Part shown: positions 4,844 to 63,829 of the stretch, one piece after another
Layout of the letters: each line of letters starts with the position of its first letter
How positions within the stretch are numbered: position 1 is the first letter of the stretch
Assembly: GCF_014203735.1 (NCBI RefSeq)
Contig: NZ_JACHJQ010000001.1
Location: 855,269-919,268 of the forward strand
Reading direction: 5' to 3'
Length of the DNA stretch: 64,000 nucleotides
Origin: Actinophytocola algeriensis
Lineage (GTDB): Bacteria; Actinomycetota; Actinomycetes; Mycobacteriales; Pseudonocardiaceae
Notes under the pieces: generated by a model
What the model saw: only the letters and a program-made list of their open reading frames with translations
The model's database searches: none
Told to the model about the DNA's origin: nothing
Program-made: the position numbers and the translations under genes

Positions 4844-6148
4844 ATGGCGCGTATCGGCGACGGCGGAGACCTGCTGAAGTGCTCTTTCTGCGGGAAGAGC
4901 CAAAAGCAGGTGAAGAAACTCATCGCCGGCCCCGGCGTGTACATCTGCGACGAATGCATCGACCTCTGCAACGAGATCATCGAGGAAGAGCTGGCCGAGG
5001 CCGGTGACGTCAAGCTCGACGAGCTGCCCAAGCCCGCCGAGATCGACGAGTTCCTCGACCAGTACGTGATCGGCCAGGACGAGGCCAAGCGCACGCTGGC
5101 CGTGGCCGTCTACAACCACTACAAGCGCATCCAGGCCGGTGACCGCGCCCGGCCGGAGACGCGTGAGGGCGGTCGCGAGTCCCGCGAGGAGACCGTCGAG
5201 CTCACCAAGTCGAACATCCTGCTGCTCGGCCCGACGGGCTGCGGCAAGACGTACCTGGCGCAGACGCTCGCGAAGCTGCTGAACGTTCCGTTCGCCATCG
5301 CGGACGCGACCGCGCTGACCGAGGCGGGCTACGTCGGTGAGGACGTCGAGAACATCCTCCTGAAGCTGATCCAGGCCGCCGACTACGACGTGAAGCGCGC
5401 CGAGACCGGCATCATCTACATCGACGAGGTCGACAAGATCGCCCGCAAGTCCGAGAACCCGTCCATCACCAGGGACGTCTCCGGCGAGGGCGTGCAGCAG
5501 GCGCTGCTGAAGATCCTTGAGGGCACCACCGCGTCAGTGCCGCCGCAGGGTGGTCGCAAGCACCCGCACCAGGAGTTCATCCAGATCGACACCACCAACG
5601 TGCTGTTCATCGTGGCCGGCGCGTTCGCGGGCCTCGAGAAGATCATCCAGGACCGCGTCGGCAAGCGCGGCCTCGGCTTCGGCGCCGAGATCCGGTCGAA
5701 GGCGGACATCGACAACGCCGACTTCTTCGCCGACACCATGCCGGAGGACCTGATCAAGTTCGGTCTGATCCCCGAGTTCATCGGGCGTCTGCCGGTCGTG
5801 GCCTCCGTGACCAACCTCGACAAGACGTCGCTGGTGCAGATCCTCACGGCGCCGCGCAACGCGCTGGTGAAGCAGTACCAGAAGCTGTTCGAGATGGACG
5901 GCGTGGAGCTGGAGTTCACCGACGCGGCGCTCGAGGCCATCGCCGACCAGGCGATTCTCCGTGGGACCGGTGCTCGTGGGCTCCGGGCCATCATGGAGGA
6001 GGTGCTGCAGACCGTCATGTACGACATTCCTTCGCGGTCTGACGTCGCCAAGGTGGTCATCACCGAGCAGACGGTCCGGGAGAACGTGAACCCGACGATC
6101 GTGGCTCGTCAGCCTTCGCGTCGGGAGCGTCGCGAGAAGTCCGCCTGA
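4844..6148 (+). CDS. clpX: ATP-dependent Clp protease ATP-binding subunit ClpX
   Basis: A hexameric AAA+ unfoldase that recognises substrates and feeds them to ClpP1P2. The 434-residue product starts with the four-cysteine zinc domain (CSFC at 13-16, CDEC further on), then Walker A GPTGCGKT near residue 130, Walker [11 protein letters not shown] near 190, and the arginine-bearing sensor region [10 protein letters not shown]. The ATG at 4844 is placed directly before the zinc domain; the frame is open from 4619 but the extra 75 residues are low-complexity. The 190 bases between the clpP2 hairpin and this ATG hold no gene and are the likely clpX promoter region. Confidence 0.97.
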
Positions 6149-6427: not shown

Positions 6428-7018
6428 ATGCCGTACGTCTTGCTGCTCCACGGGCACATGGGAGCTCCGCCCCCGCACTGGCAGAGCTGGCTCGCGCACG
6501 AGCTCGCCGACACCGGGTACGTGGTCGAGGTTCCCCAGCTGTCCGAGCCCGACCGGCCGCAGGTGGACGTCTGGCTCGGCGAGCTGCGGCACCACCTCGA
6601 GGCCGCGCCCGCCGACGACGAGCGGATCGTGCTCGCGCACTCCTGTGGCGCGGCGCTGTGGCTGCATCACGCGGCCCAGCTCGTCGACACCGAGCACCAC
6701 CAGTTGCGGTTCGACCGGGCACTGCTCGTGTCGCCGCCCGGGCCGCGGTGGCAGCACCCCGACGTGCACGGGTTCGCGCCCGCCCCGCTCGACCCGGCCG
6801 GGGTGCGGCGCGCGGCAGGCTGGACGCAGCTCGTGGTCGGGGACGACGACGTCGCGTGCTCCGTCGACGAAGCCGTCGACATGGCGTCCGCGCTGAAGAT
6901 CGACCTCGACATCATCCCCGGCGGCGCGCACCTCGACGGATCCGCCGGCTACGGGCCGTGGCCCGCGGTCCGGGACTGGGTCGCCGACCGGCACACCCGG
7001 ATGGTCACGAACCGGTGA
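6428..7018 (+). CDS. RBBP9/YdeN-type alpha/beta serine hydrolase
   Basis: A 196-residue cytoplasmic hydrolase. It starts with [12 protein letters not shown], has W-x-x-W-L early, the nucleophile elbow AHSCGA (Ser in G/H-x-S-x-G context), the acid region [10 protein letters not shown] and the C-terminal His in [16 protein letters not shown]; this order and the GxGPWP-like ending are typical of the RBBP9/YdeN family. The ATG at 6428 is preceded by GAGGA; the frame is open from 6359. It converges on fdhD and the two reading frames overlap by 14 bases at their 3' ends. The substrate is unknown. Confidence 0.85.
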
Positions 7019-7835
7019 TGCGCTCCGCGTGCGTGTAGACGTTCATACTTGTGCCGCGCAGGAAGCCGACCAGCGTGATGCCCTGCTCGTCCGCCAGCTC
7101 CACCGCCAGCGACGACGGTGCCGACACGGCCGCCAGGACCGGGATGCCCGCCATCGCGGCCTTCTGCACCAGCTCGAAGCTCGCCCGGCCCGACACCACC
7201 AGCACCGTGCCGCCCAGCGGCACCCGGCCGTTCAGCACCGCCCAGCCGGTCGCCTTGTCGACCGCGTTGTGCCGGCCCACGTCCTCGCGCACCACGAGCG
7301 GCTCGCCGCCGTCCGCGGTGAAGATGCCCGCCGCGTGCAGGCCACCCGTGGAGTCGAACACCCGCTGCTGCTCGCGCAGCCGGCCGGGGAAGGTCACCAG
7401 CGTCTCCGGTGAGACCCGGCAGGCGTCCTCGGCAGGGGAGAAGCGGGTCTTCAGCTTCACCGCGTCCAGCGCCGCCTTGCCGCACACACCGCACGACGAG
7501 GTCGTGTAGAAGGTGCGCTCCAGACTGGTGTCCGGTGGCTCGACACCCGGCGCCAGCGCCAGGTCCAGCACGTTGTACGTGTTGCGGCCCTGGGCGTCCA
7601 CGCCGTCGCAGTAGCGGGCGGTGGTGATGTCCTCCGCCGCCCCGATCACGCCTTCGGTCAGCAGGAATCCGTGCGCCAGCTCCACGTCGTGGCCGGGGGT
7701 GCGCATCGTCACCGACAGCGCCTTGCCGCTGATCCGCAACTCCAGCGGTTCCTCGGCGGCGAGCGTGTCCTGACGCCGACTGCTGCCGCCCTCGGTGAGC
7801 CGCAGGACCGGGCGCCGCACGGTGACTCGTCCCAT
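7005..7835 (-). CDS. fdhD: formate dehydrogenase accessory sulfurtransferase FdhD
   Basis: FdhD carries sulfur from a cysteine desulfurase to the molybdenum cofactor of formate dehydrogenase. The 276-residue product has the redox/persulfide pair C115-x-x-C118 in SSCGVCGKA, the conserved block [11 protein letters not shown], and the GR-A-S-F/E-L region after it. ATG at 7835. No formate dehydrogenase gene is visible nearby, so its target lies elsewhere. The gene diverges from the winged-helix regulator at 7919 across an 83-bp region packed with palindromic sites, so it may be under that regulator's control. Confidence 0.95.
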
Positions 7836-7865
7836 GTAGGCAGCCTACACCGCTATAACAAGAAG

Positions 7866-7912
7866 TCTTTAGAAAGAACCCTTGCTCAAGGAGTCTTTAG
7901 CAAGATATCTTG
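7866..7912. promoter_or_regulatory. cluster of palindromic operator-like sites
   Basis: Four related inverted repeats lie between fdhD and the regulator gene: TCTTTAGAAAGA (7866-7877), CTTGCTCAAG (7881-7890), TCTTTAGCAAGA (7894-7905) and the perfect palindrome CAAGATATCTTG (7901-7912). AGTCTTTAG occurs twice as a direct repeat 28 bp apart. The region is strikingly A+T-rich for this genome. The overlap of the last site with the regulator's start suggests autoregulation. Confidence 0.6.
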
Positions 7913-7918
7913 ATATGC

Positions 7919-8491
7919 ATGGTCGACGAGCAGAACAACATCACCGATCCGAAGGAACTCCGGGCGCTCGCACACCCGCTGCGGTGGCAACTCCTCGAGA
8001 TCCTGACCCGTGAGGGCAGCGCCACCGCCACGCTGTGCGCGCGGGAGACCGGTGAGAGCGTCGCCAGCTGCTCGTACCACCTGAACATGCTCGCCAAGTA
8101 CGACTTCGTGGTGCAGGCCGACGGCGGGAAGGGCCGGGAGAAGCCGTGGCGGCTCGCCAGGGAGACCACCCGGTGGACCGATGTCGGGCTGGACACCGAG
8201 GGAGCGGTCGCCGCGCAGGCCGCGACCAGCGCCTTCCTCGACTACACGCTGAACCAGATCAGGGAACGGCACCTCGCCCTGGCCGCCGAGCCGGAGGAGT
8301 GGCGGGACGCGGCCGGGATGGACAACTCCACCCCGTTCCTCACCGCCGACGAGGTACTCGAGTTCCGGACGGACGTCCGCAAAATGCTGGACCGCTACCG
8401 CGACCGCCGGGACAAGCCCGAGACGCGACCCGATGGCGCTCGCTCGGTGAACCTCTTCTTCTCCGCCACGGTCCTGCCGCGGCAGGACTGA
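7919..8491 (+). CDS. ArsR-like winged-helix transcriptional regulator
   Basis: A 190-residue DNA-binding protein. Residues about 10-90 form a winged helix-turn-helix of the ArsR/HTH_20 type: DPKELRALAHPLRWQLLEIL is the first helix, and ETGESVASCSYHLNMLAKYDFV is the recognition region with the S-x-S-Y-H-L motif. The C-terminal half is a helical dimerisation or ligand region with no metal-binding cysteine pair. ATG at 7919 is used; a TTG at 7910 is in frame and lies nearer the AAGGAG at 7888-7893. Palindromes overlapping its promoter suggest it represses itself and perhaps fdhD. A 57-residue ORF follows directly. Confidence 0.8.
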   Translation: MVDEQNNITDPKELRALAHPLRWQLLEILTREGSATATLCARETGESVASCSYHLNMLAKYDFVVQADGGKGREKPWRLARETTRWTDVGLDTEGAVAAQAATSAFLDYTLNQIRERHLALAAEPEEWRDAAGMDNSTPFLTADEVLEFRTDVRKMLDRYRDRRDKPETRPDGARSVNLFFSATVLPRQD

Positions 8492-8557
8492 CAACCCACT
8501 GAACCAGCCGTCGTGCGACGACGGCTCTCTTCGACCTGCCCAGAAAAGGAGATCGTC

Positions 8558-8731
8558 ATGGATGTCTTCAGCGCCAGCGCGATCGTCGCCGCCCGCCACG
8601 CAGACCTGGTCAGAGAGGCCGACGAGTCCCGGCTCGCCCGGGCTGCCCGTGAATCCCGGGACGAGCCGAAGCCGGCGCCGAAGCCCGGGCCGCGGGCGGT
8701 TCGGGCCCGCAGGCTGGGTGTTGCCCGGTAG
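8558..8731 (+). CDS. small unknown protein (57 aa), probable
   Basis: An ATG at 8558 is preceded by AAAAGGAG with ideal spacing. The product begins M-D-V-F-S-A-S-A-I-V-A-A-R-H-A-D-L, an amphipathic helix, continues with an Arg/Glu-rich helix and ends in a Pro/Arg-rich basic tail. It has no signal peptide or membrane segment. It lies 66 bases after the winged-helix regulator on the same strand and ends 10 bases before the flavoprotein ATG, so it is probably in the same transcript. I do not recognise the family; the strong ribosome-binding site is the main evidence that it is real. Confidence 0.6.
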   Translation: MDVFSASAIVAARHADLVREADESRLARAARESRDEPKPAPKPGPRAVRARRLGVAR

Positions 8732-8741
8732 CGTGACCGGG

Positions 8742-10280
8742 ATGACCGAACGCTACGACGTGGTGGTGGTCGGCGGTGGCCACAACGGACTGGTCGCCGC
8801 CGCTTATCTGGCCCGTGCCGGGAAGTCCGTGCTCGTCCTCGAACGGCTCGGCCGCGTGGGCGGCGCCGCCGTGAGCGCCACCCCGTTCCCCGGAGTGGGC
8901 GCGCGACTGTCCCGGTACTCGTACCTCGTGAGCCTGCTGCCCACCGCGATCGTCCGCGACCTCGGGCTGCGGATCGCGTTGCGGTCGCGTGCCGTGTCGT
9001 CGTACACGCCGGTCGAACGGCACGGTCGCCCGACCGGGCTGCTGGTCGAGCGCGACCCGGGGGAGGCCACCGCCGCCTCGTTCCGCGAACTCACCGGCTC
9101 GGACGACGAGTTCACCCGGTGGATGTCGTGGTACTCGTCGCTCTCCGCGATGGCGCAGGCCGTCGCGCCCACCATGCTCGGACCGGTCCCGTCGCGTGCC
9201 GCGTTCCGGTCGCTCGTGGCGGGGGCCGCCGGGGATCGGTTGTGGGAACAGGTTTTCGAGCAGCCGATCGGCACGGCGATCGAGGAGACGTTCGCCGACG
9301 ACGTCGTCCGCGGCGTGGTCGCGACCGACGCGTTGATCGGCACCCACACCTCACTGCGGTCACCGTCACTGCTCGGCAACCGCTGTTTCCTCTATCACCT
9401 GATCGGTGATGGCACGGGTGAGTGGCGCGTGCCGGTCGGCGGCATGGGCGCGGTGACCGGGGAACTGGCCAGGGTCGCGCTGCAGGCGGGCGCCGTGCTG
9501 CGGACCTCGGCGACCGTGTCGCGCGTGGACGCCGACGGCGCCGTGGCCGAGGTGTCCTACGTCGCGGACGACACCGAGCGCACGGTGACGACTTCGTACG
9601 TGCTGTCCGGGGTGGCGCCCGCGGTACTGGACGGACTGCGCGGCCGTGTCGCCACGCCGCCCGCCGGTTCCCAGCTGAAGATCAACATGCTGCTGTCGCG
9701 CCTGCCGCGCCTGCGTTCCGGGGTCGACCCGAGGCAGGCGTTCGCGGGCACACTCCACCTCGACGAGTCCTACGCGGAACTCGAAAGTGCTTACCAGTCA
9801 AGTGTTTCCGGTGTGGTACCCGACCCCATGCCCGGTGAGATGTACTGCCACACGCTGACCGACGATTCCATTGTGGACGGCGAGCTGCACACGCTGACCC
9901 TGTTCGGCCTGCACGCCCCGGCCTCGCTCTTCGCGGGCGACAACGCGGGCAGGCGAGCGGACCTGTGCGCCCGGTACCTGGCCGGCCTGAACCGCCACCT
10001 GGCCGAACCGATCGAGGACTGCCTGGCGACCGACGAGGACGGCCGCCACTGCATCGAGGCAAGGACTCCACTCGATCTCCAGGACGAGCTCGCCATGCCC
10101 GGCGGCCACATCTTCCACGGCGACCTGGACTGGCCGTTCAGCGACGAGGGCGGCGGCTGGGGCGTCGAGACCGACGTGCCGAACCTGTTCCTGTGCGGCA
10201 GCGGCGCCCGCCGCGCGGGCGGGGTCAGCGGCATCGGCGGCCACAACGCGGCACAGGCGGTACTGGCCGCGACGACCTGA
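8742..10280 (+). CDS. phytoene-desaturase-like FAD/NAD(P)-dependent oxidoreductase
   Basis: A 512-residue flavoprotein. The N-terminal dinucleotide-binding motif reads VVVVGGGHNGLVAAAYLARAG followed by the E-R-L-G-R-V-G-G-A-A continuation typical of the phytoene desaturase/PYROXD2 group, and the C-terminal FAD motif is in LFLCGSGARRAGGVSGIGGHNAA. ATG at 8742 was chosen; the frame is open from 8562, but that extension overlaps the 57-residue ORF. No carotenoid genes accompany it, so a carotenoid role is not supported; PYROXD2-like oxidoreductases of unknown substrate fit better. A hairpin over its stop separates it from the converging mycoredoxin gene. Confidence 0.85.
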   Translation: MTERYDVVVVGGGHNGLVAAAYLARAGKSVLVLERLGRVGGAAVSATPFPGVGARLSRYSYLVSLLPTAIVRDLGLRIALRSRAVSSYTPVERHGRPTGLLVERDPGEATAASFRELTGSDDEFTRWMSWYSSLSAMAQAVAPTMLGPVPSRAAFRSLVAGAAGDRLWEQVFEQPIGTAIEETFADDVVRGVVATDALIGTHTSLRSPSLLGNRCFLYHLIGDGTGEWRVPVGGMGAVTGELARVALQAGAVLRTSATVSRVDADGAVAEVSYVADDTERTVTTSYVLSGVAPAVLDGLRGRVATPPAGSQLKINMLLSRLPRLRSGVDPRQAFAGTLHLDESYAELESAYQSSVSGVVPDPMPGEMYCHTLTDDSIVDGELHTLTLFGLHAPASLFAGDNAGRRADLCARYLAGLNRHLAEPIEDCLATDEDGRHCIEARTPLDLQDELAMPGGHIFHGDLDWPFSDEGGGWGVETDVPNLFLCGSGARRAGGVSGIGGHNAAQAVLAATT

Positions 10281-10308
10281 GGGGCACGCCGCACAGCGCA
10301 CCCCTCAG
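10277..10308. terminator. bidirectional hairpin between convergent genes
   Basis: CTGAGGGG (10277-10284) and CCCCTCAG (10301-10308) form a perfect 8-bp stem that includes the stop codon of the flavoprotein and lies just before the end of the mycoredoxin gene on the other strand. Confidence 0.6.
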
Positions 10309-10318
10309 TGCCCGGCGG

Positions 10319-10567
10319 TCAGTTCAGTTCGGCCTTGACCTGCGCCAACGTGGGGTTCGTCAGTGCCTTGCCGTTCGGGAAGTGGAGTGTGGGGACGGTC
10401 TGGTTGCCGCCGTTGACGCTCATCACGAAGTCGGCCGCGCCCGGCGTCCGCTCGATGTCGACCTCTGCGTACTCGATGCCGTCGCGGTCCATCTGCGACT
10501 TCAGGCGCCTGCAGTAACCGCACCAGGTGGTCGAGTACATCGTCACTTTCGCGGGGGCCTCGGTCAT
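10319..10567 (-). CDS. mycoredoxin (glutaredoxin-like, CGYC active site)
   Basis: An 82-residue thioredoxin-fold protein. The active site C16-G-Y-C19 sits in TTWCGYCRRLK, the cis-proline is in QTVPTL, and FPNGKALTNP follows, matching mycoredoxin-1, which reduces mycothiol-protein mixed disulfides in actinobacteria. ATG at 10567 follows AGGAG by five bases; two GTG codons just upstream are in frame but badly spaced. It implies that the organism makes mycothiol. Confidence 0.9.
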   Translation of the reverse strand: MTEAPAKVTMYSTTWCGYCRRLKSQMDRDGIEYAEVDIERTPGAADFVMSVNGGNQTVPTLHFPNGKALTNPTLAQVKAELN

Positions 10568-10633
10568 CACCACTCCTGTCGGGAAGGACTGTCCACCCCC
10601 ATTAACGCGCGACAGCCTCGAAACATGCCCGAG

Positions 10634-11599
10634 TCAGGCGTGACAGCCGCCCGCGGCAGGCAGTGGAGCGGTGGGGTCGAAGAACTCGTTCGGCTCGCGG
10701 CCGCCCCCGGGCGCGGTCACGGAGGGTTCGGCGGCCACCGGGGCGAGGAACCCCTTCCGGTAGGCATCGCACCCGATCGAGTAGCCGAAGCCGGACGCGT
10801 CGCCGTACCACAGGCCGCGGCTGCTCGGCGTCCACCGTTCGCCGTGGCGCAGCACGTAGTCCACGTCCGCCCGCACCACGACGATCACGTTCATCGCGTC
10901 CACGAGCTTCGTCGGCCCCTGCGGCCGGAACGCGTACGCGAACACGTAGTTGGTGTGCACGACCAGCTCGTCGGGGTCGCCCGCCCGAACCGACATCGAC
11001 CCGGTCACCTTCGGCGCCACCGGCAGCAGCTCGGCCCCTGCGGCCACCAGGCTCACGAGCGACTGCACCTCGGCCTCGTGGCCGTCGGCGAACAGCGGCT
11101 CGAGCTGCCGCTTCGCGTCCGGTGCGAGCAGTCCCAGGTAGCCGGCCGGGTCGTGCTCGGCCAGCATCCGCGTGTCGATCCGGCTCGCGACCAGCGCGTC
11201 CCGCACCAGGGCGGTGGTCTCCGCCACCTGCTCCGCGCTGAAGCCGCCCACGGCCCGCGCTTCGGGGAGCGTGATGCCGCCGGCCCCGTTCGCCCAGTCC
11301 GCGGCGGGCGTCGACGCGAACGGCCGCGCCGGGTCCAGCTGCGCGACCGACCGGACCGGCCGCGTGTCATCCGCCACGGGGTCCCCGGCCACGGGCGCGA
11401 ACAGGCTGCTCCTGATGAGCAGGGTCGCGACCGCGCCGACCGCGAGCACCACGAGCCCACCCGCGAGCCAGCGACCGCGGCGGCGCCGGGTTTCGGCACG
11501 CAGCAGTTCCCGCACGTCCTCCGTGGCCGCACGTTCGACGGTGACCGCCCAGTCGACCTCAGGGGCCTCCCATTCCTGGGCGTGCTGCCGAGACTTCAC
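10634..11599 (-). CDS. membrane-anchored extracytoplasmic protein of unknown function
   Basis: A 321-residue protein with a charged cytoplasmic start, an Arg-rich stretch R-R-R-R-G-R-W, one membrane segment ([18 protein letters not shown], about residues 45-62) and a long outer domain of about 250 residues. The outer domain contains two late cysteines (in SIGCDAY and at the end, GGCHA) that could form a disulfide. GTG at 11599 follows AGGGGAGCAG; the frame is open a little further to 11623. It diverges from valS. The domain resembles nothing I can name; secreted or anchored proteins of this size next to valS are seen in related actinomycetes. Confidence 0.75.
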
Positions 11600-11744
11600 C
11601 TGCTCCCCTACCCTGACCCACAACCAGGCAAAACACGAACCTTCCGGTGCTCAGGTCATCGATCGGACCGACCCGCGCGTTAACAATGTGTGCGCTGCGG
11701 AACTCGAATGCGGGCGCCCGGTGGCGGTTCGTAGACTTTTGGGC

Positions 11745-44770: not shown

Positions 44771-44783
44771 CGCGAGGTATCTC

Positions 44784-44910
44784 CTCATCTGTCCCGCGTG
44801 CGGGTCGGAATTGGCACCGTGATCGTCGCCGTTATCGCGGTCGCGAATGACGTGGCTGACGCCGGTTGCCGGGGCTTCGTCGGGCCGATCCCTCTGCCCC
44901 TCTGGATGAG
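44784..44910 (-). ncRNA. SAM-I riboswitch upstream of thrC
   Basis: On the minus strand, starting at 44910: CTCATCCAGAGGGGCAGAGG, then GGATCGGCCCGACGAAGCCC and CGGCAACC, the S-box core; after a variable arm, ACGGTGCCAATTCCGACC and the closing GATGAG at 44789-44784. CTCATC and GATGAG form P1. The ribosome-binding GAGGAG of thrC begins within the last bases of P1, and the ATG is 14 bases further on, so SAM-stabilised P1 probably hides the site and lowers translation. No terminator stem is visible between the aptamer and the gene. Confidence 0.93.
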
Positions 44911-45060
44911 CGGTATTCAGTTGTCTGCCGGACACGTTACGGCACACCCCCGTCACCCGGCCAATGTGAGGTCCATCATTCGAGACCCGCTTCAGCGGTT
45001 CTCCACAGCGGCGGGCGTGCCTGTCGATCCGGCCTCGACGGGTGATGCGAGGATGGCGGG

Positions 45061-52434: not shown

Positions 52435-52974
52435 ATGACTGAGAGCGAGAACCGGCGGTATCTGTTGCGGGCGGGAGCGGCGATCGCGGTCGTCGGGGCG
52501 GTGAGCATCGGCGCGATCGGCATCGCGGCCGCGTCGAGCGGCGAGACGACCGCGGCGGCACAGCCGACCTCCGCACCGGCACCGGACGACGACGAGCACT
52601 GGCGCGGTCCGTGGGGTGGTCCGTGGCGCGGCGGCTTCGGCGGTGGTTCCGGTGGCTTCGGCGATGTCCTCGGTGCCGATGTCGACGGCATCCTGCACGG
52701 CGAGGTCGTGCTGTCGAAGGAAGGCGGCGGCACGCAGACCGTGCTGGTGCAGAAGGGTGCGGTGACCGCGGTCAGCGCGACCGAGGTGACCGTGAAGAGC
52801 ACGGACGGGTTCACGACCGCGTACTCGGTGAACGACGACACGAAGGTCAGGGCGGACGAGGACAGGATCGGGTCGGTGGCGAAGGACGAGGAGGTGCTCG
52901 TCGTGGCGCCGAAGTCGGGTGACAAGCACACGGCGACCGTGCTCATCGACCTCACGGACGTGGGCTGGAAGTAG
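52435..52974 (+). CDS. secreted or anchored protein with DUF5666-like domain
   Basis: A 179-residue protein. Residues 1-35 hold a positively charged start and a hydrophobic segment (LLRAGAAIAVVGAVSIGAIGIAAAS) that serves as signal or anchor. A Pro/Asp/Trp/Gly-rich linker with WRGPWGGPWRGGFGGGSGG leads to a beta-rich domain (GEVVLSKEGGGTQTVLVQKGAVTAVSATEVTVKS is the region, about 85-130) that resembles DUF5666. ATG at 52435. Function unknown; its end is nine bases from the converging TAXI gene. Confidence 0.8.
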   Translation: MTESENRRYLLRAGAAIAVVGAVSIGAIGIAAASSGETTAAAQPTSAPAPDDDEHWRGPWGGPWRGGFGGGSGGFGDVLGADVDGILHGEVVLSKEGGGTQTVLVQKGAVTAVSATEVTVKSTDGFTTAYSVNDDTKVRADEDRIGSVAKDEEVLVVAPKSGDKHTATVLIDLTDVGWK

Positions 52975-52983
52975 TACCCCGCG

Positions 52984-54063
52984 TCAGCCGCGCAGGTCGC
53001 GGTAGGCGGTCGCGGCGCCCGGGTGCATCGGCAGCGGCGCGGTCGCGATGAGCGAGCGCTGGTCCAGGTACTGGGTGCCAAGCGCTTGCGGCGGCACCAG
53101 CCGCGACGCGCGGGTGACCAGCACGCGGGCGACCGCGCCTGCGACGTCCTCAGGCAGGTCGCGGCGGGTGACCAGCAGGTTCGGCACGCCGATGGTGTCG
53201 ACCGGGTGGCCGTAGCCGCCGTCGGGGACCGCGACCTGTTCGTACACCGGTCCGTGCGTGGCCTGCAGGGCGGCGAGCTGGTCGGTGAGGTCGAGCAGGC
53301 GGATCGGGCGGATGCGGTGCAGCTCCGTGAGCGCGGGGGTGGGTACACCGCCGGACCACAGGAGCGCGTCGACGCTGCCCATGGCCAGTTCCGCGACGGC
53401 CTCGGCGAGCGGGTGGTGGTCGACGGTGGCGGTGATCCCGCTCTCGGTGATCATCCGGTCGCCGAACAGGGCGGCGCCGGAACCTTTGGCGCCCAAAGAG
53501 ATCCGCTGCCCGGCGAGGTCGGTGACGGACCGCGCCGGGCTGTCGGCGGGGACGACGAGCTGCATGTAGTTCTCGTAGACGCGGCCGATCGCGCGCAGTG
53601 GCAGGGGGATGGTGAAGGGGGTGCGGCCCGCGTAGGCGGCGGCCGCGGCGTCGGCGAGGGTGAGGGCGAGGTCGGCGCCGCCGTCGCGGACGAGGCCGAG
53701 GTTGTCGACGGAGCCGGTGGTGCTGAGGACTGTCGCGGGCATCTCGCCTGCCAGCAGCTCGGCGAACTCCTTGTAGAAACCGCCGGGTTCGCCCGCCGCG
53801 ATGCGGAGTGTCTCCTGTGGACTGCCGGTGCAGGCGGTGGCGATGAGGGCGGCGCTCAGCGTGAGGAACGCGCGGCGGGTTGGCCTCCGGCCCCCGGGTT
53901 CAACGCTACCGGAGGGGGCCGACAGTTTCGGTGGCGTCGGGGTGGGTTGTCCACAGGGCGTTGCGGGGGTGGTCATTGCGTGAGTTGTCATTGCGGGGGG
54001 CGTCATTGCAGGGGTCGTCATTGTGCGGGTTGTCGCTGTGTGGGTTGTCGCCGCGTTGGTCAT
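52984..54063 (-). CDS. TAXI-family TRAP solute-binding lipoprotein with repetitive N-terminus
   Basis: A 359-residue solute-binding protein. The mature part starts LRIAAGEPGGFYKEFAELLA and contains the TAXI blocks AGQRISLGAKGSGAA and VDTIGVPNLLVTR. The export signal RRPTRRAFLTLSAALIATAC has a twin-arginine and a lipobox (A-T-A-C). Unusually, the ATG at 54063 lies about 55 codons before this signal, and the first 30 codons are a 15-bp tandem repeat. The ATG overlaps the histidine kinase stop (ATGA). No TRAP membrane subunits are nearby, so the protein may present a ligand to the kinase rather than serve transport; this is inference. Confidence 0.88.
   Translation of the reverse strand: MTNAATTHTATTRTMTTPAMTPPAMTTHAMTTPATPCGQPTPTPPKLSAPSGSVEPGGRRPTRRAFLTLSAALIATACTGSPQETLRIAAGEPGGFYKEFAELLAGEMPATVLSTTGSVDNLGLVRDGGADLALTLADAAAAAYAGRTPFTIPLPLRAIGRVYENYMQLVVPADSPARSVTDLAGQRISLGAKGSGAALFGDRMITESGITATVDHHPLAEAVAELAMGSVDALLWSGGVPTPALTELHRIRPIRLLDLTDQLAALQATHGPVYEQVAVPDGGYGHPVDTIGVPNLLVTRRDLPEDVAGAVARVLVTRASRLVPPQALGTQYLDQRSLIATAPLPMHPGAATAYRDLRG
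53972..54061. repeat. six tandem 15-bp units encoding Thr/Met-rich pentapeptides
   Basis: Units begin at 53972, 53987, 54002, 54017, 54032 and 54047, each close to GTCATTGCGGGGGTT and divergent mainly in the second half. Because 15 is a multiple of three, the repeat stays in frame on the minus strand and encodes T-x-A-M-T-type pentads (TNAAT, THTAT, TRTMT, TPAMT, PPAMT, THAMT) directly after the start codon of the TAXI protein. Confidence 0.88.
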
Positions 54064-55406
54064 CGTGCCGTCCGCAGGGTGATGGTCACGGCCAGGCCGC
54101 CGCGGTCGCCGTTGCCGACGGTGAACCGGCCGCCGTGGGCGGTGGTCAGGCGTTCCGCGATCGCGAGGCCGAGGCCGGAGCCGGGGGTCGCGGTGGTCGC
54201 GCGCCAGAAGCGTTCCGTCAGGCGTGCCAGGTGTTCTTCGGGCACGCCGGGGCCGTCGTCGTCGATGGTCAGTGTGGTTTCCGCCGGGGTGGTGTGGCTG
54301 GTCCAACGGATCGTCGCGTCCGCGCCCGCGTACTTGATCGCGTTGTCCAGCACGACATCCAGCACCTGTGCGAGCTCCGGTTCGGCGCAGCGCACCGGGA
54401 GCGTCACCGGGATCTCGCCGGCCAGGTGCACACCCGCCGCGTCCGCCGCCCGCCCCCACGCCTCGACCCGGTCGGCGAGCACGGTCGCCGCGTCGCAGCG
54501 CGCGGCCGCGGCCGACGCGGCCAGGTCGGTCGCCGTGCTGTCCGCCGACGCGAGCGTCAGCATGCCGGCCAGCAGGGCCTCGAGGCGGTCCAGTTCGCTG
54601 ACCACGGGGTCGTAGGCGGGGTCGGTCGCCGCGAGCGTGTCGATGCGCAACCGCAGTGCCGCCAACGGGTTGCGGAGCTGGTGGGACGCGTCGGCGACGA
54701 GTTGCCGTTGCCTGCCAGCGGATTCGGCGAGCGCGTCGGACATCTGGTTGAACTGCTCCGCCAGGCCGCGCAGCTCGGGCGGGCCGGTGCTGACGTCGAC
54801 GTGGGTGCGTTCGCGTCCGGCGGCCACCGCGTGCACGCCGTCCGCCAGCTGCGCCACGGGCCGCAGCAGCCAGCGCGCGATCCGCAGCACCAGCAGCACA
54901 CACGCGGCCGCCGCGACGAGTGCCGCGAGTAGCACCACCGCCCAGCGGAACCGGATGTCCGCCACCGCGGCCGCCACCGACGACCGCAGCACCACCGCAC
55001 CCGACACACTCGTGCCGGTGCCGACGGCCTGCGTGAACAGCACGGTGCCGCCCGACCACGGCCGCAGCTCGGCGAGTGCCTGCCTCGGCTGGTTGCGCAG
55101 CGCGGCGTCGATGGCGGCCGCCACGTCCGGGTCGGTCGCCCGCATCCCGGCCTCGACCACGACGCGGCGGCGGGCGTCCACGACCACCACGTCATCGCCG
55201 TACAGGGTGGTGTGCGCGCGGACCTCGGTGACGAGGTGGGTGCGGTTCTCCTGTGCCAGCACGGCGAACCGGGCCGCGTCGGTGGTGCGGGACGACACGA
55301 ACTGCTGGGTGCGGTTGGCCGCGGTCGACAGCAGCAGCGGCACCGCGAACCCGGCGACCGCGACCACCGCGAACGCCAGCAACACCGCCAACAGCCTGCG
55401 CCGCAA
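54060..55406 (-). CDS. sensor histidine kinase
   Basis: A 448-residue two-component kinase. Two membrane segments (about residues 5-27 and 155-178) enclose an extracytoplasmic sensor of about 125 residues. A HAMP region follows, then the DHp helix with the phosphoaccepting His in DASHQLRNPL, and the ATP domain with DNAIKYA (N box), DDDGPGVP (G1) and GSGLGLAI (G2). TTG at 55406 is chosen: GGAGGAG lies within the end of the regulator gene and the TTG is four bases past its stop; the open frame to 55478 would overlap the regulator by 68 bases. Cognate partner of the regulator just upstream. Confidence 0.93.
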   Translation of the reverse strand: MRRRLLAVLLAFAVVAVAGFAVPLLLSTAANRTQQFVSSRTTDAARFAVLAQENRTHLVTEVRAHTTLYGDDVVVVDARRRVVVEAGMRATDPDVAAAIDAALRNQPRQALAELRPWSGGTVLFTQAVGTGTSVSGAVVLRSSVAAAVADIRFRWAVVLLAALVAAAACVLLVLRIARWLLRPVAQLADGVHAVAAGRERTHVDVSTGPPELRGLAEQFNQMSDALAESAGRQRQLVADASHQLRNPLAALRLRIDTLAATDPAYDPVVSELDRLEALLAGMLTLASADSTATDLAASAAAARCDAATVLADRVEAWGRAADAAGVHLAGEIPVTLPVRCAEPELAQVLDVVLDNAIKYAGADATIRWTSHTTPAETTLTIDDDGPGVPEEHLARLTERFWRATTATPGSGLGLAIAERLTTAHGGRFTVGNGDRGGLAVTITLRTAR

Positions 55407-55410
55407 GGAG

Positions 55411-56064
55411 CTACTCCTCCAACCGGAACCCGAAGCCGCGGATCGTCGCCACCAGACCCGGGCGGCCGAGCTTGGCACGCAGGCCGGTCAGGTGCACGTC
55501 CAGCGACCGGGACACCGCCAGGTACGCGTCGCCCCACACCTCGTCCAGCAGCCGCTGCCTGCTCACCGCCACCCCCTGGTTGCGCGCCAGCACCGCGAGG
55601 ATGTCGAACTCCTTGGCCGTCAGCTCGATCTCGCCGCCGTCCGTGCTGACGCGCCGCGCGTCGAGGTCGATTTCCAGGTCCCGCACCCGGACGACCCTGG
55701 ACTCCCCGGCAGGTGCCGCCCGGCGGGTCACCGCGTGGATGCGGGCCAGCAGCTCCGCGAGCCGCACCGGCTTGACCAGGTAGTCGTCGGCGCCCAGGTG
55801 CAGGCCGCGGACCACGGAACGTTCGTCGCCGCGGGCGGTCAGCACGATCACCGGGGTGGTCGCCACGCGGCGCAGCTTCCGCAGCACCTCCAGACCGTCC
55901 ACATCGGGCAGTCCGAGGTCCAGCAGCACCAGGTCGGCGTCGTGGTGGCGGGTCAGCGCGTCCTCGCCGCGGGTGAGCCGCTCGGTCAGGTGCCCGTGCG
56001 CGCCCAGCGCGCCGACGACCGCGTCCGCGACGCCGTCGTCGTCCTCGACGACCAGGACCTTCAC
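55411..56064 (-). CDS. OmpR/PhoB-family response regulator
   Basis: A 217-residue regulator. The receiver domain has the acidic pocket EDDDG, the phosphoacceptor in LVLLDLGLPDVDG, the conserved Thr/Ser in VIVLTARG and Lys in DYLVKPV. The C-terminal winged helix has IELTAKEFDILAVL and SRSLDVHLTGLRAKLG. GTG at 56064 follows AAAGAGGT; it starts VKVLVVEDD, the usual family start. First gene of the regulator-kinase-TAXI operon and divergent from the Nramp-like gene. Confidence 0.95.
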   Translation of the reverse strand: MKVLVVEDDDGVADAVVGALGAHGHLTERLTRGEDALTRHHDADLVLLDLGLPDVDGLEVLRKLRRVATTPVIVLTARGDERSVVRGLHLGADDYLVKPVRLAELLARIHAVTRRAAPAGESRVVRVRDLEIDLDARRVSTDGGEIELTAKEFDILAVLARNQGVAVSRQRLLDEVWGDAYLAVSRSLDVHLTGLRAKLGRPGLVATIRGFGFRLEE

Positions 56065-56078
56065 GTGCGACCTCTTTC

Positions 56079-56094
56079 CTAAGCGACCGTTAAG
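56079..56094. promoter_or_regulatory. direct repeat in divergent promoter, possible regulator site
   Basis: CTAAG at 56079-56083 and TTAAG at 56090-56094 are spaced 11 bp start to start, one helical turn, as in the tandem half-sites of OmpR-type regulators. They lie between the regulator gene and the Nramp-like gene, so the regulator may control both. Confidence 0.35.
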
Positions 56095-56134
56095 TCTGAC
56101 GGACCGGGGTGCCACCCGAGGTTACGGTCCCGGC

Positions 56135-57412
56135 ATGTCGAGTGAAGTGGACCACAACGTGGTGGCCGCGCCAGCGGACTGGCGTGCCCGGCTCAAGCAG
56201 ATCGGCCCCGGCATCATGGCCGCCGCCACCGGCGTCGGCGCGGGGGACCTGGTGGCGACGATGGTCGCCGGTTCCAAGTACGGCTACACGCTCCTGTGGG
56301 CGGTGATCATCGGCACCGCGTTCAAGCTGGCGCTCGGTGAGGCCGTCGGCCGCTGGCACCTCACGTCCGGGCAGACGATCCTGTCCGGCTGGCGCACGCT
56401 CGGTAAGTGGGCGCTGTGGTACTTCGGCGTGTACGCGGTGATCTGGGGCTTCGTGTACGGCGCCACCGCGATGTCCGCGTCCGGGCTGCCGCTGAACGCG
56501 CTGTTCCCGTTCCTGTCCGTGCGGTACTGGGCGATGCTCTGCGGGCTCGCCGGTTTCGCGCTCGTCTGGTACGGCCGGTACGCGATCCTCGAGAAGGTCA
56601 TGACGGCCTTCATCGGGATCATGTTCGTGACCGTGGTCGGCACCGCGTTCCTCGTGGCACCGAACCTCGGTGACGTCGCGTGGGGCCTCGTGCCGAGGCT
56701 GCCGGACGGCTCGCTGGTGTACGTCCTCGGCCTGATCGGCGGCGTCGGCGGCACGATCACCATGGCCGCCTACGGTTACTGGACGATCGCGAAGGGCTGG
56801 CGCGGCCCGTCCTGGCTGCCGATGATGCGCACCGACAACGCGGTCGGCTACCTCACGACCGGCGTGTTCGTGATCGCGATGCTCATCGTCGGCTCGGAGT
56901 TGCTGGCCGGCCACGAGGTCGTCACCGGCGACAAGGGTCTCCTGACCCTCGGCGACACCCTGGCCGCCGACTACGGCGAGTGGGCCAGGATCCCGTTCCT
57001 GGTCGGGTTCTTCGCGGTGGCGTTCACGTCGGTGATCGGCGTGTGGAACGGCGTGAGCCTGCTGTTCGCCGACTGGTGGCGCACGCTGCGCGCACCGTCG
57101 GACGAGGCGGGCGAGAAGGTGGAGCACCGGCAGCTGGAAGGCAGCCGTGCCTACCGCGGGTACATCCTGTGGCTGACGTTCCCGCCGATGGTCCTGCTGT
57201 TCCTCGACCAGCCGTTCCAGCTGACCGTCGCGTACGGCGCGCTCGGCGCGTTCTTCATGCCGTTCCTCGCCGGGACGCTGCTGGTGCTGCTGAACTCGCG
57301 GCGGGTGGGCGCGGACGGCCGGTCGGGCTGGATCTCGAACACGTTCCTGGTCGCGTGCGTGGCGTTGTTCGCCTACCTCGCGTACGACCAGCTCGTCGGC
57401 CTGTTCGAGTAG
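56135..57412 (+). CDS. Nramp-like transporter lacking the canonical metal motifs
   Basis: A 425-residue membrane protein with about eleven segments and the overall Nramp/LeuT layout (GPGIMAAATGVGAGDL at the first segment). In true Nramp manganese/iron transporters the first segment has DPGN and the sixth has MPH. Here the matching places read G-A-G-D and G-T-I-T-M-A-A-Y-G, so the usual metal-binding Asp/Asn and Met are not conserved. ATG at 56135. It is divergent from a two-component operon and may be its target. Substrate unknown; a different ion or small solute is possible. Confidence 0.85.
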   Translation: MSSEVDHNVVAAPADWRARLKQIGPGIMAAATGVGAGDLVATMVAGSKYGYTLLWAVIIGTAFKLALGEAVGRWHLTSGQTILSGWRTLGKWALWYFGVYAVIWGFVYGATAMSASGLPLNALFPFLSVRYWAMLCGLAGFALVWYGRYAILEKVMTAFIGIMFVTVVGTAFLVAPNLGDVAWGLVPRLPDGSLVYVLGLIGGVGGTITMAAYGYWTIAKGWRGPSWLPMMRTDNAVGYLTTGVFVIAMLIVGSELLAGHEVVTGDKGLLTLGDTLAADYGEWARIPFLVGFFAVAFTSVIGVWNGVSLLFADWWRTLRAPSDEAGEKVEHRQLEGSRAYRGYILWLTFPPMVLLFLDQPFQLTVAYGALGAFFMPFLAGTLLVLLNSRRVGADGRSGWISNTFLVACVALFAYLAYDQLVGLFE

Positions 57413-57501
57413 GACCGGGGGGTCGGTGGCTGGGCCCGGCCGGGCGATGACCAGGCCGGGTCCAGCGCCCGGATCTCCGCGTCGCGGACTACCGTCGAGC
57501 C

Positions 57502-58140
57502 ATGTCTGGCTGGGCGGGGAGCCGGTTGCCGGCGCGGGTGTACGACTTCGGGGTCGAGCGGGAGTGGCTCGCGCGGCCCGCGGGTGCGCTGCTGTGGGGC
57601 ACCGACACCCGCCTGATGTACGAGACGATCCGCACCATCGGGGCGCTGCCGCCCGGTGCCGCGGTGCTGGACGTGCCGTGCGGCGGTGGGCTCGCGTTGC
57701 GTGGGACGCGGCCGGGGCAGGACCTTCGTTACGTGGCGGCCGACATCTCGCCGGTGATGCTGGCGCGGACCCGCGCGCAGGCCACCAGACTGCGCCGCGA
57801 GGTGACGGTGATGACCGCCGACGTCACGCGGCTTCCCTTCCAGGACAACGGTTTCGACCTGTGCGTGTGCTTCAACGGCCTGCACTGCCTGCCCGATCCC
57901 GCGGCGGCCGTGCGGGAGATCACCCGCTGTCTCAAGGTCGGCGGCCGCCTCGTGGGGGACACGATCGTGCGCGGGGCGGGGCGGCGGCAGGACCTCGCGA
58001 TCGGTGCGTTCCACCGGTTCGGCCTGTTCGGCCCCGGGCGCACGGTCGACGAGGTCGAACGCTGGTTCACCGACGGCGGCCTGCGCGTGGACCGGCTGGA
58101 GCTGTCGGGCGCCGTGGCCCACTTCGCGGCGACCCGCTGA
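57502..58140 (+). CDS. class I SAM-dependent methyltransferase
   Basis: A 212-residue enzyme of the Methyltransf_11 type. Motif I is VLDVPCGGGLAL, the acidic loop YVAADISPVMLA, motif II DVTRLPFQDNGFDLCVCFNGLHCLPD and motif III LKVGGRLVGDT. ATG at 57502. It has no linked partner: an atypical transporter lies upstream and the broken heme locus downstream. The substrate cannot be told; the fold suits ubiquinone-type or small-molecule methylation. Confidence 0.88.
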   Translation: MSGWAGSRLPARVYDFGVEREWLARPAGALLWGTDTRLMYETIRTIGALPPGAAVLDVPCGGGLALRGTRPGQDLRYVAADISPVMLARTRAQATRLRREVTVMTADVTRLPFQDNGFDLCVCFNGLHCLPDPAAAVREITRCLKVGGRLVGDTIVRGAGRRQDLAIGAFHRFGLFGPGRTVDEVERWFTDGGLRVDRLELSGAVAHFAATR

Positions 58141-58162
58141 GCGCGGGCCGCCGCGAGAGTGC

Positions 58163-59093
58163 TCAGGCCCTGACCCGCCTGCGCGGCATCACGAGCGTGG
58201 CACCCGTGAGCACCATCGTCAGGCTGATGGCGACCAGCATGCTCACGTTCACCCCCGTGTCAGCCAGGTTCTGCGCGACCGGGGTCGTCGGCGTGTGCAC
58301 GGACCCGCCGCCGCCACCGCCCGCCGCCGGTGGCGGGAGGGTCGCGCCGTCGAGTGCGATCGTGACGGTCAACCGGGTCCAGTTCGGTACCCGCCGGGTA
58401 GAAGCCCGCGAAGCCCGACGCGCCCTGCTCGGTCAGCACCGCGGGCATCGCCGTGTACGTGTTGAGTCCGTTCCCGACGGTCGGGGTGCCCGGCGTCAGC
58501 GTGGCGAACACCGCGTCGTCCAGCTCGACGTACTCCTCCGGGTTCTCCAGCCCCTTGCTGCGCACGTCGAGGAGCAGTTCCGCGGCACCGTTCGCGAACC
58601 GCACCTGGGGCTGCGAGATCGTCAGGTCCAGCAGACCGTCGTGGCCGGTGAAGTGGACGCCGCCCGCGAACGTGACGAGCTCCTCCGTGCCCGAGGTCAG
58701 GTTCTCCCACGCGAACGGGCCGTCGCCGGTCACGTCGTCGAGCGTCCACGAGCCGTGGGCGATCGGACCGCGGATGTAGTCGCGGAACGACTCCTTCAGG
58801 CCCCACTCCAGCCGCGCGTCGGTCACCCCGGTGCCCGGGTCCACCGGCGGCGTCGTGGGGTCGGTAGGGCCGGTCGGGTCCGTGGCGAAGGTCAGGTCCG
58901 TGAACAGCTCGTGTGCCGCGTTCACCGCGCCGCCCGCGGCATACGTGATCACGCCACAGGTTTCCGGCGTGCACTCCTGGTCGGCCACGTCGAGCGTGCC
59001 GCTGAACGTGCCGTCCGGCTTCAGCTCCACGTAGTCCGGGTTCGTGCCGGCCGGGTCGAGGATCGCCCTGGACGCCGCGGGCAGCACCCACTC
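58163..59093 (-). pseudogene. htaA-like heme-binding cell-wall protein, 5'-truncated and frameshifted
   Basis: The minus strand encodes the C-terminal part of an HtaA domain (blocks LEWGLKESFRDYIRGPIAHG and VTFAGGVHFTGHDG are recognisable), which in Corynebacterium and relatives binds heme from hemoglobin. The frame starts abruptly at about 59093 without start codon, promoter or signal peptide. At 58371-58373 an extra T (CCGGTTGACC instead of CCGGTGACC) shifts the frame by one; after it, the second frame continues correctly through a Pro/Gly linker, the sortase-type sorting signal LADTG (LAxTG, class E), a hydrophobic segment and the RRRVRA tail. Two independent lesions make it non-functional unless one is an assembly error. 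Confidence 0.8.
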
Positions 59094-59639
59094 AACGCGT
59101 TCGCGTTCGGGGTGATCGCGTTCCTCACCTACGTCGCGGACCCGCAGGCGCGTGAGCAGATCGTGTTCTGGCAGCTCGGCAGTCTCAACGGGGCGACCGG
59201 ATCGGCGGTCGCCGCGGTGACACCGCTCGCGGTGGCGGGCCTGGTGATGGCGGCTCTGGTGGCGGGACGGCTCGACCTGCTCGCGCTCGGGGAGGGGCCC
59301 GCGCGGCACCTCGGCGTGCACGTGGAACGGCTGCGGCTGGTGGTGGTCGTCGCGGTGGCGCTGCTCGTCGGGGCGGGGACGGCGTTCGCGGGGATCGTCG
59401 GGTTCGTCGGGCTGGTGGTGCCGCACGTGATCCGGATGATCGCCGGGCCCGCGCACAAGCTGCTCGTGACGGCCAGCGCGGTGGGTGGCGCGCTGGTGAT
59501 GGTGAGCGCGGACCTGCTGGCGCGGACCGCGGTCGAGAACGCGGAGCTGCCGCTGGGCATGCTGACCTCGCTCGTCGGCGGGCCGTTCTTCTTCTGGCTC
59601 CTGCGGCGCACGCGGAGCAAGCAGGGCGGGTGGGCGTGA
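59091..59639 (+). pseudogene. hmuU: heme ABC permease (HmuU/FecCD) missing its 5' half
   Basis: The sequence from 59091 encodes LNAFAFGVIAFLTYVADPQA and continues through the C-terminal half of a FecCD-family permease, with the conserved WQLGSLNGATG, AFAGIVGFVGLVVPHVIRMI and the final membrane segments. About half of a usual 340-residue protein is absent; the upstream DNA is antisense to htaA. GTG at 59112 could start a 175-residue fragment but has no ribosome-binding site. Its 3' end overlaps hmuV normally. A functional transporter is not expected. Confidence 0.85.
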
Positions 59640-60403
59640 TGCTCGCCGCCCTGTCGGCGGTGTCGGTCGCCCGAGGCGGGCGGACCGTGCTGGACGACGT
59701 GTCGCTCACCTTGTCGGCCGGGGAGGTCGTCGCCGTCGTCGGGCCCAACGGGGCGGGCAAGTCGACGATGGTGGGCGTGCTCGCCGGGGACCTGTCACCG
59801 GTGTCCGGGACCGTCACCGTGGACGGGCGGCCGGTGGAGCGGTGGCGGCCGAGGGAGCTCGCCGTGCGGCGGTCGGTGCTGCCCCAGCACACCGCGGTCG
59901 CGTTCCCGTTCACCGTCGCGCAGGTCGTCGCCATGGGCCGGGCGCCGTGGGCGGGGATCGCGTCCGCCGACGAGGACGAGCGGGTGGTCGCCGAGGCCAT
60001 GGCCGTGACCGAGGTGACCGAGTTCGCCGGCCGCACGTTCAGCACGCTGTCCGGCGGCGAGCGGGCCAGGGTGGCACTCGCGCGCGTGCTGGCCCAGCGC
60101 ACGCCCGTCCTGCTGCTCGACGAGCCGACCGCGGCCCTCGACCTGCGGCACCAGGACCTCGTGCTGTCCGTGGCCGCCGCCCGCGCCGCCGCCGGGTGCG
60201 GCGTGCTGGCCGTGCTGCACGATCTGAACCTCGCGGCGGCGTACGCGGACCGGGTCGCGATCGTGGCCGGCGGGCGGCTGCGGGTGTGCGGGCCGCCGGG
60301 CGAGGTGCTGACCGGTGACCTGCTGACCGAGGTCTACCACCGCGAGGTCGAGGTCATGGCACACCCGCGTACCGGCAGTCCGCTGGTGCTGCCGGTGCGC
60401 TGA
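59639..60403 (+). CDS. hmuV: heme ABC transporter ATP-binding protein
   Basis: A 254-residue ATPase of the iron-siderophore/heme type. Walker A GPNGAGKST, Q-loop LPQHTA, signature LSGGERARVALA, Walker B VLLLDEPTAALDL and switch His in LHDLNLAAAY. ATG at 59639 overlaps the hmuU stop (TGATG). The gene itself is intact, but its permease and binding protein are broken or missing, so it can only work with a permease from elsewhere. It converges on the phospholipase D-like gene with a 10-base gap. Confidence 0.9.
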   Translation: MLAALSAVSVARGGRTVLDDVSLTLSAGEVVAVVGPNGAGKSTMVGVLAGDLSPVSGTVTVDGRPVERWRPRELAVRRSVLPQHTAVAFPFTVAQVVAMGRAPWAGIASADEDERVVAEAMAVTEVTEFAGRTFSTLSGGERARVALARVLAQRTPVLLLDEPTAALDLRHQDLVLSVAAARAAAGCGVLAVLHDLNLAAAYADRVAIVAGGRLRVCGPPGEVLTGDLLTEVYHREVEVMAHPRTGSPLVLPVR

Positions 60404-60413
60404 TCAGGCGTGC

Positions 60414-61886
60414 TCAGCCGTCCACGAGCAGGCCCCGCAGCGGGCCCTGCAGGCGTCCCGCCCGTTTGGACTGGCCGGGCAGGAACACGAGCCGGTGCGT
60501 GCGGGGCAGTCCCCGGCTCTCCAGCTCCGCCTGCTCCTCGGCGATCGGCCGCCACAGCCGGTCGACGACGTCGGCCGGCGTGCCGGACACCTCCTCGACC
60601 GGCAGTTGCAGGTGCTCGGACCACAGCCGCAGCCGGGTCGTGCGGATCAGTTCGTGGTCGTCGGTCGCGATGTTGACCTCGGTGTCGTTGAACAGCGAGT
60701 GCTCGTTGAGGTTCGCGGACCCGATCGTCATCCACGCGTCGTCCACGATGCCGACCTTCGCGTGCACGTACACCGGCGCCCACGTGTCGCCGTCATGCGT
60801 GGACAGCGTGGTCGCCACCAGCTGGCGGCCGGGGCTGTCCTCGTCGGCGTCGATGAGCCTGCCGAGCTGGCCGCGGGTGGTGTCCGCGCCGTTGCTCGGC
60901 TTGCGCGGCAGCAGCAGGACCACGCGGAAGTCGTCGGTCGGCGGGGCGCATAGCTTGTCCATCAGCACCTCGGCGATCTCCGGTGACCACAGGAACTGGT
61001 TCTCCAGGTAGACGAGGTGCCGTGCCGACCGCAGCGCGCGCAGGTAGGCGTCGAGGATCGTGAACTCGCCCTTCGGGGCGAAGTCGTAGGTCTTGTCGGG
61101 GACCGTGCGGAGGAACTGCACCTTCGTGCCGCCCGCCTTCGCGGGGATCTTCGGCTCCGGCAGGTCCTCGTCCGTGACCTCCTCCCAGCGCTGCCGGAAG
61201 TGCCGCGCCACATCGGCGACGATCGGGCCTTCGAGCCTGGTCATCAGGTCGTGCCAGCAGATCGGGCGGCTCGGCGGGTGCTGCACGCTGTCGTGCCGGT
61301 CCCCCTCCAGCGCGGTGAAGTCGATGCCGCCGACGAACGCGACCTCGTCGTCGACGATCACCAGCTTCTCGTGGTGGCAGTGCATGGTGCGTTCACGCGA
61401 GTCGAGCACGCACTTGACGTCGGTGTTCGCCGTGAACTTCTTCTGTTCGGCCCGCACCAGCCCCCGGGTCGGCTGGAAGGCGGGCAGGGGCGGGCCCGCC
61501 CACAGCAGCAGCCGCACGTCGACGCCGCGCTGCGCGGTCGCGGCCAGCAGGTCGCGCAGTGTGGGTGCGTCCGGTTCGCGGGTCAGCCGGAAGTCCGGGC
61601 TCGCGTGCCAGTTGGCGATGTGGACGTGCGACCTGGCGTTCCTGATGGCCCTCTCGATGGCAGGCAGCGCCTCCTCACCGTCGACCAGCACGTCGACCCG
61701 GTTGCCGTCGCGGATCGGCGCGCGGCCCCCGAAGCGGTCCTCGGTGCCGGTCGGCTCGAGGACCTCGCCCCAGCCGAGGTGTCTCAACCGGCGTTCGTGG
61801 TGAGCGCACAGGGCGTGCTCGAGGCCGTCGCCCAGCCGCTCGTCCACCTTGTCCAGGAGTGAGCGAAATGAGTTCACAGCTACCAT
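60414..61886 (-). CDS. phospholipase D-like protein with two HKD motifs
   Basis: A 490-residue member of the PLD/cardiolipin synthase superfamily. The first HKD motif is HCHHEKLVIVDDEVAFVGG and the second YVHAKVGIVDDAWMTIGSAN, as needed for the two-step phosphatidyl transfer. There is no signal peptide or membrane segment, unlike cardiolipin synthases, so a cytoplasmic or released hydrolase/transferase acting on phospholipid head groups or DNA is possible. ATG at 61886 is used; GTG at 61877 is an alternative, and neither has a strong ribosome-binding site. Divergent from lepA. Confidence 0.88.
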   Translation of the reverse strand: MVAVNSFRSLLDKVDERLGDGLEHALCAHHERRLRHLGWGEVLEPTGTEDRFGGRAPIRDGNRVDVLVDGEEALPAIERAIRNARSHVHIANWHASPDFRLTREPDAPTLRDLLAATAQRGVDVRLLLWAGPPLPAFQPTRGLVRAEQKKFTANTDVKCVLDSRERTMHCHHEKLVIVDDEVAFVGGIDFTALEGDRHDSVQHPPSRPICWHDLMTRLEGPIVADVARHFRQRWEEVTDEDLPEPKIPAKAGGTKVQFLRTVPDKTYDFAPKGEFTILDAYLRALRSARHLVYLENQFLWSPEIAEVLMDKLCAPPTDDFRVVLLLPRKPSNGADTTRGQLGRLIDADEDSPGRQLVATTLSTHDGDTWAPVYVHAKVGIVDDAWMTIGSANLNEHSLFNDTEVNIATDDHELIRTTRLRLWSEHLQLPVEEVSGTPADVVDRLWRPIAEEQAELESRGLPRTHRLVFLPGQSKRAGRLQGPLRGLLVDG

Positions 61887-61984
61887 GGCACTACAGCTCG
61901 ACGAGGTTCGCCGAACGAGCGCGCAGGCGGTCCCCGGGCACGTGGGACGATGTGACGTACCCGTAGACACCGCGAGGAACCTGA

Positions 61985-63829
<1,845 letters not shown>

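Follow-up and report, generated by a model that had tools for sequence, protein, structure and literature searches.

A heme-uptake locus of Actinophytocola algeriensis probably wrecked by a single deletion and a separate frame change

The junction at 59091–59093 of the window (the whole stretch of 64,000 nucleotides analysed here) most probably marks the wreck of an HtaA-HmuTUV-HmuO heme-uptake locus, broken by one deletion of about 3.9 kb after the split from A. oryzae and by a separate frame change in htaA; we give this reading a probability of roughly 0.78. The features on which the description rests are listed below.

57426–59639, plus strand: 737-aa open frame that crosses the junction, taken as non-coding over htaA
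57502–58140, plus strand: SAM-dependent methyltransferase gene, open, left flank (Pfam Methyltransf_11, E = 2.1e-21)
58372 to 58163, minus strand: 3′ tail of htaA, a 69-aa frame that differs from the frame of the main piece
58260–59456, minus strand: 398-aa open frame, running first antisense to hmuU, next through htaA and finally out of frame
59090 to 58371, minus strand: main htaA remnant (Pfam HtaA, PF04213, E = 3.6e-40, residues 92–240 of 240)
59091–59093: deletion junction, htaA-like before and hmuU-like after; at most one base fits both
59094–59639, plus strand: hmuU remnant, the C-terminal 181 codons plus the stop, with no N-terminal half
59639–60403, plus strand: hmuV ATPase gene, open frame whose ATG overlaps the hmuU stop
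61985–63829, plus strand: lepA, intact right flank, 95.8% identical to A. oryzae LepA over residues 1–615

Remnants of htaA and hmuU

The htaA and hmuU remnants meet head on at 59090–59094 and neither keeps its start, an arrangement put forward in the original prediction and now borne out by Pfam matches and by alignment to the A. oryzae proteins. The main htaA remnant comprises the end of the inter-domain part and one complete HtaA domain, the second of the two found in relatives; the start, the signal peptide and the first HtaA domain are missing. Against the A. oryzae HtaA (594 residues) the window matches residues 281–528 in one frame and 528–592 in another. The change of frame lies at about 58372, where three relatives have a single frame, and it went unmentioned in the original prediction. 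The tail beyond it carries an LADTG-like motif, a hydrophobic stretch and an RRR end, and is presumably wall-anchor-like. On the other side of the junction, 59094–59636 (plus strand) matches FecCD (PF01032) only at the C-terminal profile positions 141–311 of 311 (E = 8.3e-49), and the remnant corresponds to residues 162–343 of the 343 residues of A. oryzae HmuU. The next gene, hmuV, is open, as had been proposed, and 59639–60400 (plus strand) matches ABC_tran (E = 1.6e-32).

Six features were tested for a working heme-uptake system, and the HmuV ATPase is the only one present. A complete HmuU permease, a working two-domain HtaA with start and signal peptide and an iron-controlled promoter were not found in the window, nor HmuT and an HmuO-type heme oxygenase in the window genome. 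We infer that heme no longer enters through HtaA and HmuTUV and that hmuV has little or no expression.

The intact locus in related species

The whole heme-uptake locus is present in A. oryzae DSM 45499, A. gossypii S1-96, A. xinjiangensis CGMCC 4.4663 and Herbihabitans rhizosphaerae DSM 101727. The expectation that htaA and hmuTUV are neighbours in relatives is thereby confirmed, the locus being divergent in the three congeners and in Herbihabitans. In A. oryzae, read in the orientation of the window, the methyltransferase gene is followed by htaA and a surface-protein gene, both on the minus strand, and then, divergent from the htaA side, by hmuO, hmuT, hmuU, hmuV and lepA in that order. A. 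gossypii and A. xinjiangensis share this order and have two extra genes beside the methyltransferase gene, which we take to be thioredoxin-like and CcdA-like. In Herbihabitans htaA, the surface-protein gene, hmuO, hmuT, hmuU and hmuV are present on the stretch examined, which excludes lepA and the methyltransferase gene.

The A. oryzae proteins match the Pfam families Heme_oxygenase (E = 2e-55), Peripla_BP_2 (E = 4.5e-38), FecCD (E = 1.6e-88) and HtaA (E = 7.9e-103, in two stretches), and the surface protein gives a borderline match to Neocarzinostatin (24.7 bits against a cut-off of 25). In NCBIfam, HmuV is assigned as a heme ABC transporter ATPase (309.5 against a cut-off of 261); HmuT and HmuU score above no NCBIfam cut-off. 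The small surface protein and the neighbouring htaA of A. oryzae (genes at 7388–8149 and 8207–9991) resemble each other in one respect, the surface protein matching the inter-domain stretch of HtaA (31%, HtaA residues 212–337, E = 2e-6). The middle of HtaA may hold a domain related to the small surface protein.

HtaA, HmuTUV and HmuO serve heme use in Corynebacterium diphtheriae (PMC8977872), the Streptomyces coelicolor homologues are SCO2267 and SCO2270-2274 (PMC12161575), and HtaA-domain proteins with C-terminal membrane tails occur (PMC10924467). The gene kinds in the Corynebacterium and Streptomyces systems are those of the intact relatives, including a two-domain surface HtaA together with a binding protein, permease, ATPase and heme oxygenase, whereas the window has only the halves of htaA and hmuU and the open hmuV. 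Among the papers listed in the literature searches, taken by title and start of abstract, none concerned this locus in Actinophytocola.

The missing block

In blastn alignments to the three congeners the window lacks a single block, of 3853 bases relative to A. oryzae, 3985 relative to A. gossypii and about 3965 relative to A. xinjiangensis, and gene order is kept on both sides of it. The A. oryzae locus has the same flanks and the same order and orientation of the remaining genes, but it has the 3853 bases that are absent from the window and its htaA lies in one frame. The block holds the 5′ part of htaA, the surface-protein gene, the divergent promoter region, hmuO, hmuT and the 5′ half of hmuU. 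Deletion had been predicted as the cause, with loss of the 5′ part of htaA, the regulatory region, hmuT and half of hmuU; comparison with close relatives supports this, sets the lost segment at about 3.85–3.99 kb and adds the heme oxygenase and surface-protein genes, which had not been foreseen. With an intact orthologous locus in close relatives and one block missing from the window, the site has the features expected of a deletion pseudogene locus.

The missing block is also absent from the rest of the genome as far as this was searched. HmuT and heme oxygenase (A. oryzae proteins) had no match within the window at E = 1e-4. The window genome gave no match for a heme oxygenase of the HmuO type (as distinct from the HugZ type), either with the HmuO protein or with the PF01126 family, and no HmuT match at E = 0.001, with all 68 candidates scored. 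Nor did the first HtaA domain turn up at any other place in the assembly of 9.73 Mb; the genome has one HtaA domain against two in each of the three intact congeners. When the 3854 lost A. oryzae bases were compared with the window genome, only matches of 29–146 bases appeared among the 40 scored of 1121 first-look candidates; for the surface-protein gene and the lost 5′ portion of hmuU, the search was by DNA alone. The genome has eight other FecCD matches, which are 38–42% identical to the hmuU remnant.

Candidate iron boxes in the lost promoter region

The intact loci were scanned with a 19-base DtxR/IdeR consensus. In all four, the short stretch that separates hmuO from the surface-protein gene has two DtxR/IdeR-like sites that agree at 14 or 15 of 19 positions, with 15–20 bases between them. 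As a control, one 14 kb locus was shuffled by mononucleotides 200 times; its best site then scored 12.2 on average and 15 at most. A single site of 14–15 is therefore not conclusive, but the shared pair is. With the same consensus the best site in the 64 kb window reached 12 of 19, and another congener (G004) has one site of 13 of 19 before hmuO. The lost divergent promoter was likely iron-controlled.

Formation of the junction

For a comparison of repeats, 200 bases on either side of both breakpoints were taken in the three relatives. The best matches between the flanks were 15 bases in A. oryzae and 11 in A. xinjiangensis (both E = 0.053); in A. gossypii there were matches of 61 bases at 75% and 24 bases at 87.5% (both E = 0.001), and neither of these two coincides with a breakpoint. 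Since no long repeat lies at the breakpoints, recombination between homologous flanking repeats was discounted. So was insertion of a mobile element into the junction, no transposase-like frame being recognised among the frames of the window; the Pfam scan covered selected frames. Microhomology, for which the original prediction had proposed a search, amounts to at most one base common to both sides. Because so little is shared and the breakpoints lack long repeats, the sequence suggests that end joining or other illegitimate recombination made the join, and an end-joining type of repair is presumably what produced it.

The course of events would then have been as follows. Once this lineage had diverged from A. 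oryzae, a single deletion of some 3.9 kb, with ends sharing almost no sequence, would have taken the N-terminal halves of both htaA and hmuU and everything between them: the surface-protein gene, the promoter that was likely under iron control, hmuO and hmuT. The cut 3′ halves of htaA and hmuU would have been left head to head. The htaA remnant has a separate frame change besides. Such an event is of an ordinary kind, gene loss by deletion being well known in general.

The htaA frame change and the age of the loss

As a control on the frame change, A. oryzae frames over bases 1–139,500 of its 155,588-base contig were compared with the window, and the 58 with a match were kept (seven of these are 28–38% matches and probably not orthologues); the comparison detects only shifts that have enough matching sequence on either side. 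Five of the 58 were flagged. Of these, htaA was upheld and three were explained away. The frame at 46172 lies antisense to an 86-aa gene that is itself intact; that at 10322 belongs to an intact gene of 84 aa, and it is the A. oryzae frame that extends further upstream, with poor conservation; and that at 1290–1582 overlies two tRNA genes. The remaining one, 4772–6145, looks like an upstream extension. On this outcome indels seem infrequent in this part of the assembly, and the frame change in htaA, being a second lesion, speaks more for real decay than for a faulty assembly.

An assembly fault would mean that the strain has the whole locus and that the assembler dropped or misjoined some 3.9 kb. 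Although the genome is a 9.73 Mb draft in 23 contigs, we consider this unlikely, because htaA carries an independent frame change, the gene order on either side is that of A. oryzae and the breakpoints have no long repeat. Moreover, the junction is internal to a contig of 1,326,241 bases (1.33 Mb), and none of the other contigs has hmuO, hmuT or the first HtaA domain. We take the DNA of the strain to be probably as assembled.

The remnants show no excess of amino-acid change. The HmuU remnant is 88, 87 and 88% identical to the three congeners (85–89% among the congeners; A. oryzae against the other two, 85–86%), the HtaA remnant 72–74% (A. oryzae against the other two, 64–66%) and hmuV 73–77% along its length, or 74–77% in the comparison that gives 71–72% for A. 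oryzae against the other two. Long-standing decay is therefore not seen, the frame change is the sole sign of decay, and on the scale of amino-acid conservation the loss looks recent.

Losses elsewhere in Actinophytocola

In a lepA tree of 12 genomes the window is the sister of A. oryzae (support 100/100), and the six Actinophytocola congeners form one supported group (100/100); a tree of the methyltransferase has weak supports (36–90 / 46–97). None of the five other congeners has a junction identical to that of the window; such a junction in relatives, with functional genes, was the observation that the original prediction had named as counting against it. Two of them likewise lack the uptake genes at this site. 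The site between the methyltransferase gene and lepA in G004 is like the window in having no working copies of htaA and hmuTUV, both of which are absent. Unlike the window, it keeps hmuO beside lepA and gives no match to an htaA, hmuT or hmuU remnant at E = 1e-8. On its locus (6872–11705) hmuO stands alone between a CcdA-like gene and lepA. At the corresponding site in G005 there are other genes only, with neither hmuO nor any of the heme-uptake genes. Neither G004 nor G005 has an HmuT match at E = 0.001.

Thus three of the six species, that of the window included, are without working uptake genes, and what is left over differs in each. The absences in G004 and G005 are probably losses, and not late gains in the others. 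The loss in the window is separate from those of the other congeners, because remnants are kept and the sister A. oryzae is intact. The heme-uptake system appears dispensable in this group, and the window documents one step of its loss in a soil actinomycete with the sister species as yardstick. Across the bacterial family, 62 of 390 genomes have an HtaA above the family cut-off.

The pattern in G004, with hmuO kept and the genes on both sides gone, fits more than one loss in the genus, and in the window, too, at least two nested deletions, the last giving the present junction, would leave exactly what is seen. We nevertheless hold such a stepwise loss to be improbable, to about the same degree as an assembly fault, for a single junction is all that can be seen and one event would account for it; a single deletion is the simplest reading and the one we infer. 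Shared siderophore ATPases power several transporters elsewhere. That the locus is a recurrent loss spot in Actinophytocola and that the orphaned hmuV has been kept to power other FecCD-type iron transporters is a still more doubtful proposal.

Open frames across the junction

The original prediction noted a plus-strand open frame across the junction and attributed it to chance. The frame exists (737 aa) and has a specific explanation, being codon-on-codon antisense to htaA. With a GC3 of 0.95, the htaA remnant is free of TTA, CTA and TCA codons; a codon-on-codon antisense frame cannot meet a stop within it, and the intact relatives also have antisense frames over htaA, of 482, 598 and 624 aa. 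The 398-aa minus-strand frame that likewise crosses the junction had escaped mention. Although both frames run through without a stop, the antisense register, the codon composition of htaA and the comparable frames in relatives make it extremely improbable that the junction created a new chimeric protein expressed from one of them. Neither junction-crossing frame points to a new gene; both are explained by GC-rich codons read in antisense. For annotators this is a warning: long open frames cross the junction on either strand, yet nothing supports them as coding.

Flanking regions

The methyltransferase gene on the left is present at the matching site in all five other congeners. On the right, a PLD-like gene (60414–61970, minus strand; PLDc_2, E = 6e-19) separates hmuV from lepA in the window, over 60404–61934; in A. 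oryzae these two genes are adjacent at that place. About 4.6 kb to the left of the methyltransferase gene (52973–57537) is without a blastn counterpart at E = 1e-30 in bases 1–139,500 of the A. oryzae contig, where the matches flanking this stretch lie almost adjacent to each other. Its frames resemble, as we take it, a sensor kinase, a response regulator, a TAXI-type binding protein and a transporter. Further to the left, a SAM riboswitch (RF00162) lies at 44782–44912 on the minus strand; its score of 75.9 bits is well above the gathering score, 44.4.
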